Notes under the pieces: generated by a model
Seen by the model: the letters and a program-made list of their open reading frames with translations, nothing else
The model's database searches: none
Told to the model about the DNA's origin: nothing
NCBI RefSeq assembly: GCF_001687585.2
Contig: NZ_CP016537.2
Location: 778,001-842,000 of the forward strand
Direction of reading: 5' to 3'
Length of the DNA stretch: 64,000 nucleotides
From: Planococcus halocryophilus
GTDB taxonomy: Bacteria; Bacillota; Bacilli; Bacillales_A; Planococcaceae
Made by a program: the position numbers and the translations under genes
Part shown: positions 23,198-26,883 of the stretch, in pieces
Layout: each line of letters begins with the position of its first letter
Position numbering within the stretch: the first letter of the stretch is position 1

Positions 23198-23653
23198 TTA
23201 AGGTTTTTTGTTTCGATTTTGTTGGTCTCTAAAGACAAAGTATTTAATCATGAAAAAGCTGGCTGCAAAAGAAGCAAACATCGCGAGTCCCTTTGAAAGA
23301 TTAAGACTAATCCAACTAGAGATTTCCATGAATTGAAGGAGTAGGTTGAATGCTAAAAAAACACCGTTATTGATCAGTAAGCTAAACAGTCCTTGCAGGA
23401 CAAAGAAGAATTGCTGTTGTCGACTGCCTTTAGCAGAATGGCGAAAGGTAATTCTAGAATTCCAAAAGTAACTATTACTTATCGCCAAGCAATAAGCGAT
23501 TGTATTAAATAACGCTAAAGTTCCGCTATGGCTCGTAGGGGATAAAAGTAATAATAAATTGAGCGACCCGATATCTACTGCTGCATTGGAAATCCCGATT
23601 AGGGTGAATTGAAGTGGCTGAATAGGGGCCTTACGTTTTTGGCTATTCTCCAT
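23198..23653 (-). CDS. GtrA-family membrane protein
   Basis: A 151-residue protein with four hydrophobic segments. I-S-N-S-Y-F-W-N-S-R-I-T-F after the second segment matches the GtrA consensus N-Y-x-W-N-R-x-x-T-F. GtrA proteins are thought to flip or help flip polyprenyl-phosphate-linked sugars in cell-surface glycan pathways. It is the last gene of the minus-strand unit with the glycosyltransferase (33 nt upstream) and the sulfoquinovose synthase, so it may act in lipid or surface glycosylation there. Its link to sulfolipid is inferred from position only. Confidence 0.82.
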   Translation of the reverse strand: MENSQKRKAPIQPLQFTLIGISNAAVDIGSLNLLLLLSPTSHSGTLALFNTIAYCLAISNSYFWNSRITFRHSAKGSRQQQFFFVLQGLFSLLINNGVFLAFNLLLQFMEISSWISLNLSKGLAMFASFAASFFMIKYFVFRDQQNRNKKP

Positions 23654-23686
23654 GATAACACCCTATTCTTCAGAATTTCGGTTTTC

Positions 23687-24826
23687 TCAATCGACGGCCT
23701 GAAAAGAATCCACTGTTTCGGCTTCGGCAACTTGTTTATACAAATCGCGAATTTGTTGTGCAACAGCAGCCCATCCGAGATCTGCTACATCAAGTAAAGC
23801 TTGATGTGCCAGTTGTTGACGAAATTTAGTATCTTCAAGTTGAAGAATCGTTTGTTTAAAACTCTCAGGGTCTTTCGAGTCGTATAGTAGACCGTTTCTC
23901 CGGTCTATCACTTGTTCTTTTGTCGGTCCGCTTTCCGCTGCAACTACTGGCAATCCTGAAGCCATTGCTTCCATAATTACTAAACCTAATGTTTCTGTAG
24001 TAGAAGGGAAGACAAAGGCATCGGCAGAGGCAAAAGCTGAAGCTAATTCATCCCCATGGATAAATCCAGTAAAAACAGTTTGTGTTCCTTTAAAATAGGT
24101 TTCAAGTTCATTTCTATGAGGACCGTCTCCAACAATCGCTAAGCAAAAGTGATCTGATTCTAGTAAAACATCGCGAATTTTTTCGATTTCTTTTTCTGCA
24201 GCTAAACGGCCAACGTAAAGCAATAAAATTTTGTCGTTTTGCCCATCTGTTAAGTGGGAACGCATGTCCGTTGTTGCATGATTTGGATGGAATTTTTCGG
24301 TATCAACTCCACGTTTCCAAACTTGCAATCGCTCAAAGCCCTTTTCTTCCAACTCTTTTAAAACAGTGTGAGACGTACATAGATTAAGATCGGCTGCATT
24401 GTGCATTTTTCTCATAAACCACCACATGAGCCAATCCAATTTACCGAGTTTGTAATATGCCATGTATTGGGGAATATTCGTGTGGTAAGACGCTACCATA
24501 GGAATCGCTAACTTTTTAGCATATGTCACACCAGAATAGCCCACAACAGCGGGATTAACAATATGGACGACGTCTGGATTAAATTCCAACATGTACTTTT
24601 TAACAAGACGATTCGGAAAAGCAAATTTTTTAGAACGATAAAAAGGAAAAGCGAAGGCAGGAATTCCTTTTACAACGGCACCATCAAATTCCGTTACGCC
24701 CAGATCAGGTGCGATAATTTGGATTTCATGACCGTCTCTATGCAACCAGCGGATGCAGGCTGTCAATCTCGTTACAATGCCATCAGTTGAGGGCAGGAAA
24801 GTTTCAGTGACAATTAATATTTTCAT
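23687..24826 (-). CDS. sqdX: GT4 glycosyltransferase, probable sulfoquinovosyltransferase (SqdX/SQD2-like)
   Basis: A 379-residue GT-B glycosyltransferase. N-terminal G-I-V-T-R-L (glycine loop), S-Y-H-T-N-I-P-Q-Y, V-W-K-R-G-V-D-T-E-K-F-H-P, V-G-R-L-A-A-E-K, G-D-G-P-H-R-N-E-L, and the nucleotide-binding E-T-L-G-L-V-I-M-E-A-M-A-S-G are all present. The W-x-x-G-V-D-x-E-x-F-x-P and F-T-G-x-x-x-G-D-E-L-x-x-A-x-A-S-x-D segments are those I recall from plant SQD2 and cyanobacterial SqdX. Next to a UDP-sulfoquinovose synthase this predicts transfer of sulfoquinovose to diacylglycerol. Related alpha-mannosyltransferases (MgtA/PimB type) are the alternative. ATG follows AAAGGAG. Confidence 0.78.
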   Translation of the reverse strand: MKILIVTETFLPSTDGIVTRLTACIRWLHRDGHEIQIIAPDLGVTEFDGAVVKGIPAFAFPFYRSKKFAFPNRLVKKYMLEFNPDVVHIVNPAVVGYSGVTYAKKLAIPMVASYHTNIPQYMAYYKLGKLDWLMWWFMRKMHNAADLNLCTSHTVLKELEEKGFERLQVWKRGVDTEKFHPNHATTDMRSHLTDGQNDKILLLYVGRLAAEKEIEKIRDVLLESDHFCLAIVGDGPHRNELETYFKGTQTVFTGFIHGDELASAFASADAFVFPSTTETLGLVIMEAMASGLPVVAAESGPTKEQVIDRRNGLLYDSKDPESFKQTILQLEDTKFRQQLAHQALLDVADLGWAAVAQQIRDLYKQVAEAETVDSFQAVD

Positions 24827-24869
24827 AGAAACAGCTCCTTTCTATGAACATGAACTTAGCACTCGCCTC

Positions 24870-26018
24870 TTACTTCCACTTAACGGTGGGCAAGATGTTT
24901 TCTTTAATAACGCGATCTTTGTGTACTAGGACGGTTTTTAATATTTCTCGTATGACATCATTAGTCAGTAAATGAGGTTTTAATCCTAACTCCAATAAAT
25001 TCGTATTAACTGCTTCATAAAAATGTTCTTCTTTTTCTATACGTGGATTTTCCAGGTGGCCAATGCCTACAGTTACTCCTTCTTCTGCGGCTACCTTTTG
25101 CACCATTTGTGCTAGCTCGAGCACAGAAAATTCCTCTGTAAACTGATTGAAGACACGGAACTCGCCAGGTTCGGCTGGATTTTCAGCAGCAATCTCAATG
25201 CACCTCACTGTATCTTCGATATTTAAAAATCCACGTGTTTGACCGCCTGTTCCATAAACTGTTAGGTCATGTTCAGTAGCAGCCTGAATAATAAACCGGT
25301 TCAATGCGGTTCCGAAAACCGAATCATAGTCGAGACGATTTGCTAAAACCGGATCTAATTGGGTTTCTTTTGTAGAAAGTCCATAAACAATTCCTTGGTT
25401 TAAATCAGTTGCTCGAATTCCCCAAACTCTGCAGGCAAACATAATGTTATGACTATCATGTACTTTAGAAAGATGATAATAAGAACCCGGCTGTTTTGGA
25501 AACGGCAACCGATCTTTTCGTCCTTTATGTTCAATTTCTATATATCCTTCTTCAATCGGAATATTGGGTGTACCATATTCGCCCATGGTTCCGAGCTTGA
25601 TCAAGTGACAGTCCGGCACAATGTCTTTTATGCCATATAGCACATTCAGCGTACCGACTACATTGTTTACTTGTGTGTAGACAGCATGTTCACGGTCAAT
25701 CATAGAGTAAGGGGCAGATCGTTGTTCGGCAAAATGAACAAAGGCTTCGGGCTGTTCTTGTTCAAGAACCTTTTTTAAAAACTCGAAATCCTGTAAATCA
25801 CCCTCGTATGTACGCATCACTTGGCCAGTTAGTTCTTGCCATTTGTTTACCCGCTCTTCGAGAGATGCAATTGGAGTGAGTGAATTTGAAGCTAATTCTT
25901 CATCCATTTTTCTTCGTACCATATTATCAATGATGGAAACATCATGTCCTTTTTGTGATAAATGCAAAGCAGTTGGCCAGCCACAAAATCCATCTCCCCC
26001 AGCTACAATAATTCTCAT
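24870..26018 (-). CDS. sqdB: UDP-sulfoquinovose synthase (SqdB/SQD1)
   Basis: A 382-residue extended SDR enzyme making UDP-sulfoquinovose from UDP-glucose and sulfite. N-terminal G-G-D-G-F-C-G-W-P binds [20 protein letters not shown]144-M-G-E-Y-G-T-P-N and Y181-H-L-S-K185-V-H-D-S-H contain the catalytic Thr/Tyr/Lys, one residue off from the Arabidopsis SQD1 T145/Y182/K186. T-G-G-Q-T-R-G-F and F-R-V-F-N-Q-F-T-E are also SQD1-specific. The ORF is open to 26237, but ATG 26018 with AGGGGGA 8 nt upstream and the family N-terminus is the clear start. Same operon as the flanking genes. Confidence 0.93.
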
Positions 26019-26145
26019 CAAAAATCCCCCTCGCTCTTTTTTCTGAATATTGCACATATATCTTTTGTACCACTTTAACGTACAAAATAAACCTGAAACA
26101 AAGAAGAGCTTGTAAGGACTAGAAGGCAATAAACTAAGATGGCTT

Positions 26146-26883
26146 TTAAAGGATAAACTGGAGTAATACAGAAATGAAGATAAGCCCGGTAATAAAAGAA
26201 GGATAGCTACTATTTTTCTCGCTTGGGAGTTCATCATTTAAAATGTTTAAAATGACACCTCCTGTGAGAAAAGCGGAAAAATAAGCGATATTCAAATCAG
26301 AAGTACTAGTAAATTGATAAAGAAGCCAGCCAATAAAAACAGAAAGTGCTAATACCCAACGCCCAATGTTAGTGTAGCGGTCTTCATGCGTTAAATGCAA
26401 CACGCGATTATTAGCAATAAAATGAAAAGAAAAGACCACAAAATAAATGATATAATCTGGAATTTTTTCTCCGCTTATATCGACAAGTAAGTAGCCAATT
26501 AGCGCATTGTATAGGGCGAAGCCGAAAATTTCTAAAGCGAAAATCGAGCGACTTGGTTGAGAGAGGTTTTCTTCTCTTTCATTTTTAGCTTTGGATTTTT
26601 CATTTAATTGATTGATGCCATAAAAAAAAGCGATACCTGCAAGTGTCAAAAGGTAAGTAGAGTATTCAAGTGACTCAATCCATTTTGGCAACCGTGCCTC
26701 TTCAGCCACTTTTTGATAATGCGTCAGTTCAGGAACCAAATGTAGAAAAACGTAAGCAATGGAACCTCCAGAAACAAACGACATCAGTCTATCTTTTGGC
26801 TTGCGATCTAAAAATTTAATGTAATTTGTAAAGATGTGAACAAACATGAATGCGATGATAATTACTAAACTGAAATAAAACAA
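26146..26883 (-). CDS. Polytopic membrane protein, ZIP transporter-like
   Basis: About 245 residues with seven or so hydrophobic segments. The stretch [16 protein letters not shown] (near residue 45) resembles the ZIP-family H-x-x-P-E metal-site helix, and H-F-I-A-N-N and [13 protein letters not shown] resemble later ZIP helices. I cannot name a characterised homolog. TTG 26883 is preferred: AGGAGGTG sits 6 nt upstream, while GTG 26892 overlaps it. It is first in a four-gene minus-strand unit, 127 nt ahead of the UDP-sulfoquinovose synthase gene. Metal transport is a guess from motifs. Confidence 0.65.

Follow-up and report, generated by a model that had tools for sequence, protein, structure and literature searches.

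A very likely sulfolipid cassette of sqdB, an SqdX-type glycosyltransferase gene and a gtrA-family gene in Planococcus halocryophilus

Sulfoquinovosyl diacylglycerol (SQDG) is a lipid of plants and cyanobacteria, made by SQD1 and SQD2 in the former and by SqdB and SqdX in the latter, and chloroplast SQD2 is sister to cyanobacterial SqdX (PMC8227023). It has also turned up in Gram-positive bacteria: the published polar lipids of Oceanobacillus massiliensis include SQDG (PMC4062624), and Bacillus coahuilensis carries sqd1 and sqdX, with sulfolipids in its membranes mentioned as “data not shown” (PMC4744853; all three papers are cited from excerpts). Here, we examine a locus of this kind in a 64,000-nucleotide stretch of Planococcus halocryophilus DNA (the window), part of a 3.42-Mb genome in a single contig. 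On the minus strand, sqdB is preceded by a ZIP-like gene and followed by genes for a GT4 glycosyltransferase and a GtrA-family protein, after which comes a strong stem-loop. We argue that sqdB, the transferase gene and gtrA form a cassette that very likely makes SQDG, an anionic, phosphorus-free membrane lipid. In other words, neither the pathway nor its kind of host is new; what is added is one uncharacterised partner gene.

How does the locus compare with its relatives? Like B. coahuilensis, it holds the same two enzymes in a member of the Bacillales; unlike the window, B. coahuilensis has no third gene in the excerpted description, and the comparison is one of description, not of loci (PMC4744853). 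With the cyanobacterial and plant pairs it shares both enzymes by homology (61% identity to SQD1 and 46-50% to SqdX-type proteins), and it differs from them in its non-photosynthetic host, in the linked gtrA and in having a Bacillota branch of its own in the trees. Sinorhizobium meliloti has an sqdB homologue as well (44%), but the next gene there is a GT8 transferase (PF01501), which we take to be SqdD-like, and that of the window is a GT4. The NF041015 family is the same enzyme family (493.6 bits), although the SqdB of the window stays below its cut-off; we take this to be a model of the archaeal Agl3-type UDP-sulfoquinovose synthase, an enzyme that serves protein glycans.

The first enzyme is the clearest part of the argument. 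The mechanically called open reading frame of sqdB (24870-26237) would give 455 residues, and we place the start at the ATG at 26018, for a protein of 382, because a GAGGGGG stretch precedes that ATG and because SQD1 is matched from residue 2 to the last (residues 2-382). T144, Y181 and K185 are present and aligned on the matching residues of Arabidopsis SQD1, presumably its catalytic ones, just as an earlier, sequence-only reading of this DNA had said in calling the protein a clear UDP-sulfoquinovose synthase, and homology supports that assignment. (The protein is 96% identical to the P. halocryophilus SqdB.)

The product of the next gene is placed in GT4 by its Pfam family models, and it was compared with an SqdX-type reference set, namely, the best 120 of 7500 matches to a presumed SqdX bait sequence. 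These references are 81-84% identical to the bait, and we take them to be SqdX on the strength of that bait; those with names are mostly cyanobacterial (one is Candidatus Gracilibacteria, one is Candidatus Obscuribacterales, and many are nameless). The transferase of the window aligns with every one of the 120 at 46-50% identity, over 96-99% of its own length, and four glycosyltransferases of its genome match it partially, at 25-34%. A quick tree was built from 61 rows. In it, the 38 Bacillota transferases join the 10 of cyanobacterial type with a Shimodaira-Hasegawa-like approximate likelihood ratio (SH-aLRT) support of 99, and the 13 other GT4 rows (nine Mgs-like, three from the genome of the window and one GlcN-PG-like) stand apart. 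Grouping with SqdX, as opposed to other GT4 enzymes, was the result on which the sequence-only reading had staked itself beforehand, and it is the result that came out, with reservations to which we return; the identities, the tree placement and the adjacency to sqdB all speak for an SqdX type. E278 and E286 are invariant, and a further set of residues (E8, F10, D15, R20, N91, W135, H142, N148, L280 and W352, among others) is invariant in both SqdX-type sets and not in the Mgs-like rows. We regard these as candidates for substrate recognition and nothing more.

What makes the three genes a unit is the way in which they are inherited. Among 46 genomes of the genus, sqdB is open in 12 (E<=1e-30), the transferase gene is found in the same 12 at the same threshold, and gtrA is found in the same 12 again (E<=1e-5), with the genes adjacent in every case, so that the earlier inclusion of gtrA in the operon holds. 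One further genome (G152) holds decayed remnants of all three, that is, an sqdB fragment with stops, a C-terminal piece of the transferase gene and a stop-containing gtrA, with an open PGA_cap gene (77%) on one side and an open ZIP-like gene (79%) on the other; in a genome without sqd genes (G179), PGA_cap directly follows the ZIP-like gene. Because of this shared pattern, the decay in the one genome and the empty site in the other, we conclude that the cassette moves as sqdB-sqdX-gtrA, and within the genus it comes and goes whole.

Beyond the genus, a GTDB scan gave 336 stretches encoding a relative, of which the best 80 were analysed. They represent 22 named Bacillota genera (plus two records not named to genus), including Halobacillus, Salinicoccus, Marinococcus, Gracilibacillus and Lentibacillus, which we take to be salt-adapted, as cassette hosts in the Bacillales presumably are for the most part. 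The transferase gene adjoins sqdB, downstream, in 80 of the 80 loci, and therefore the pairing is not chance. Of 151 genomes of the family, 6 have a strong SqdB match (479 bits or more), and all 6 belong to the genus of the window; of 398 genomes sampled across the phylum, 7, counting that of the window, have an SqdB match at E<=1e-60, in one case of just 40% identity. The earlier remark that SQDG is reported only sporadically in the Bacillales thus captures the patchiness and understates the breadth, given 22 named genera and the published cases. Four genomes with SqdB (G337, G505, G547 and G198) gave no match to a transferase or GtrA of the window type in the stretches fetched.

From what is known of these families, the pathway would run as follows. 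SqdB would make UDP-sulfoquinovose from sulfite and UDP-glucose, the GT4 enzyme would then pass the sulfoquinovose on to inner-leaflet diacylglycerol, and GtrA would be a linked membrane accessory, most likely moving the product or carrier-linked sulfoquinovose across the membrane.

What, then, weighs against SQDG synthesis? The SqdB of the window misses the NF041015 cut-off of 575; since that cut-off is reached in none of the 151 family genomes and in one of 14 controls, we read the model as centred elsewhere, and we take the miss to bear on that model and not on membership in the SQD1 family. The cyanobacterial references are titled just “glycosyltransferase” or are nameless, so that the SqdX label goes back to that presumed bait, and sqdB was not seen beside them; plasmids gave no match, and viral contigs gave eight distant partial ones. 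The SqdX-type grouping comes from the quick tree, which carries long-branch warnings, has some outgroup rows cut short and leaves out plant SQD2. A careful tree, built from 54 rows, separates the Mgs-like proteins at 100/100, the Bacillota at 95/98 and the bait matches at 94/96, but having three groups only and no root, it speaks for separation and not for kinship. To these points, we must add the want of a sulfite source, the many loci without gtrA and the verdict of the curated transferase models.

The first of these concerns sulfite. PF01507 (CysH) has no match in the genome of the window, against matches in 14 of 14 controls, and so its SqdB has no known source of sulfite, in a search that covered CysH but neither sulfonates nor persulfide oxidation. 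Could the cassette of this strain be idle, or low-yield, for want of sulfite? CysH is matched in 16 of the 46 genomes; 14 pass the Pfam cut-off, and 7 are strong (192 bits or more). The strong ones make up 7 of the 12 sqd-positive genomes and 0 of the other 34 (Fisher p 1.5e-5, uncorrected for relatedness), and in the two neighbourhoods gone through of the four fetched (L167 and L168, in the region set L161-L168), the strong CysH lies among genes that resemble a sulfate assimilation operon by size, order and first residues, with gene names that we take to be those of such an operon. The nine weaker genomes (48 bits or less) include two that are sqd-negative (G158 and G151) and one that is sqd-positive (G044). 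That leaves 5 of the 12 without strong CysH, and these five, the genome of the window among them, either obtain sulfite otherwise or have a divergent reductase, unless they produce no SQDG at all. The decay in G152 also fits an idle cassette, but in the window, all three reading frames are open and share 94-100% identity with those of the nearest relative, and we consider idleness unlikely.

In another Bacillota genome (G505, L113 4191-9501), cysH and an ATP sulfurylase gene lie about 2.4 kb from an SqdB of 60% identity, with no window-type transferase in the stretch fetched.

The second difficulty concerns gtrA. Its product is a good match to PF04138 (66.1 bits vs a gathering score of 26.1), and the gene follows that of the transferase in 35 of the 80 loci; the other 45 have no GtrA match (some contigs are short), from which it follows that gtrA is dispensable for the pathway in general. 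Where it is present, it is linked in two arrangements, since the order is sqdB-transferase-gtrA in one other Bacillota genome (G409) and gtrA-sqdB-transferase in another (G334). On the SqdB tree, its presence needs two changes, with one locus (L077) lacking it inside a gtrA-bearing branch. We tentatively suggest that GtrA may be an undescribed third SQDG component in Gram-positives that translocates SQDG, or a sulfoquinovosyl lipid intermediate, to the outer leaflet. It would then be an ancient part of the Bacillota cassette that the Halobacillus-Salinicoccus-Oceanobacillus branch has lost (L077 lacks it, too). This role, which we infer, is the sole novel reading of the locus, and in a single search of an open-licence library we came across no report that connects gtrA with SQDG, which does not prove that none exists.

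GtrA proteins are known for their association with polyprenyl-phosphate sugars, and one might therefore imagine that diacylglycerol is not the acceptor of the sulfoquinovose and that the transferase attaches it instead to undecaprenyl phosphate, a wall polymer or a protein glycan, with GtrA flipping the carrier-linked sugar. In another Bacillota genome, G547, a GT2-GtrA fusion and a PIG-V-like protein are encoded near an sqdB (53%), and a Pseudonocardia plasmid has sqdB beside a GT2 gene. The transferase of the window, however, is an SqdX-type GT4 and not a GT2, the 45 loci without gtrA keep SqdB and the transferase, and the three Oceanobacillus loci (L051, L067 and L078) are among those without it, in a genus in which O. 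massiliensis has SQDG according to the excerpted report (PMC4062624; the locus of that species itself was not examined). An acceptor other than diacylglycerol strikes us as distinctly improbable. (The G547 locus, L114 3108-7690, also encodes an LPG_synthase_TM protein and may hold a pathway to a sulfoquinovose glycan, in which GtrA would have a different context.)

Least of all do we credit a glucosyl- or N-acetylglucosaminyl-lipid synthase that merely happens to lie beside sqdB: the best curated models are indeed those for GlcN-PG synthase (NF053787) and alpha-MGlcDAG synthase, but they give only 174.8 bits against a cut-off of 480 and 108.1 against 400, the gene adjoins sqdB in every one of the 80 loci and, at E<=1e-30, is confined within the genus to the 12 genomes with open sqdB, and its product stands apart from Mgs-like rows in both trees. 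(No genome among 348 passes either cut-off, and the outgroup rows are accordingly sub-cut-off relatives.)

We return to the SQDG cassette and to how Planococcus came by it. In both trees, Planococcus and Planomicrobium sit with Marinococcus, a member of another family (100/99 for the transferase, 97 for SqdB), and a constraint holding Marinococcus, Salibacterium, B. piscicola and Sinobaca together without Planococcus was rejected in the transferase tree (p 2.2e-5), the constrained group having been chosen after the first tree was seen. The simplest reading is that the cassette probably reached Planococcus by horizontal transfer from a Marinococcus-like donor.

Why should any of this matter? 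A lipid pathway of plants and cyanobacteria appears here as a cassette in many Gram-positives, gained or lost whole within a single genus, and gtrA can be named as a candidate translocator gene. The filled and empty sites of that genus also provide natural pairs, with and without the cassette, for asking what SQDG does outside photosynthesis (e.g., salt tolerance or phosphate saving).

The coordinates of the locus are given in Table 1; those of the four open reading frames named in the sequence-only reading hold, as does its spacing of 43 nt between sqdB and the transferase gene, and the gap from there to gtrA is 33 nt (46 and 36 nt, respectively, when the ends leave out the stop codons).

Table 1. 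Features of the sqdB-sqdX-gtrA locus and its edges (window coordinates)
Feature	Coordinates	Strand	Basis
sqdB, UDP-sulfoquinovose synthase (by homology), 382 aa	24870..26018	-	547 bits, full length, to SQD1 1qrr/1i24
sqdX-type GT4 glycosyltransferase, 379 aa, E278-x7-E286	23687..24826	-	Pfam Glyco_transf_4 + Glycos_transf_1
gtrA, small membrane protein of the GtrA family, 151 aa, last of the three cassette genes	23198..23653	-	PF04138, E 4.1e-18
Probable intrinsic terminator after gtrA	23154..23189	-	15-bp stem ending in U-run, 6-nt loop
Block upstream of sqdB, possible promoter	26056..26092	-	common to window and L001-L005
ZIP-like gene, neighbour, judged outside unit	26146..26892	-	PF02535, sub-threshold
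PGA_cap-family gene, neighbour, judged outside unit; other cassette edge	21730..22878	-	genus comparison

The two flanking genes, ZIP-like and PGA_cap, we judge to lie outside the cassette. The sequence-only reading had counted the ZIP-like gene, with gtrA, among extra genes that might make a distinct version of the pathway; gtrA is indeed linked, the ZIP-like gene is a neighbour, and the enzyme pair itself is of a known kind. The ZIP-like label is weak (PF02535, 19.3 bits vs a gathering score of 35.1), and matches occur in 44 of the 46 genus genomes, paralogues of 26-42% included. Close copies (61% or more) are present in 26 genomes, 12 with open sqdB and 14 without it, and G112 has a broken copy. 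The close copy is beside sqdB in 9 of the 12 and on another contig in G079, G097 and G170, and a ZIP-like gene was matched near sqdB in only 5 of the 80 GTDB loci (L001-L005). On these counts, and on the arrangement in G179, we rejected it as an operon member. Rfam and tRNA scans of the window gave no match, nor did PADLOC.

The stem-loop just after gtrA (-18.6 kcal/mol, z -8.4) is a probable intrinsic terminator; a pattern-based scan listed four sites (3.1 expected) and not this one, probably since the stem takes up the T-run. A promoter scan gave 9 sites where 11.9 were expected, and we claim nothing from it. The block upstream of sqdB, GTTTA(T/C)-N14-(T/C)GGTAC-N-AAA-N-ATATAT in an alignment of six sequences, is a possible promoter and, to our eye, reminiscent of sigma-B. 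Phosphate control is not supported in the window, because no repeat like the PhoP box (11-bp period) beats shuffling upstream of sqdB: when the 250 nt upstream were shuffled 100 times, 90 of the shuffled sequences reached the same score or better. Across 81 upstream regions, six reached p<=0.01 (100 shuffles each), and three of these are near-copies from Terribacillus (L030, L035 and L043), with four hexamers at an 11-bp period, like a PhoP box, about 124 nt upstream of sqdB.

Finally, phage records held no SqdB at E<=1e-30, and viral contigs held one relative, at 39%. A haloarchaeal plasmid, Natrinema pNVE414 (L104 6001-9170), carries an SqdB relative of 38% identity, followed by two more NAD-dependent epimerase genes.

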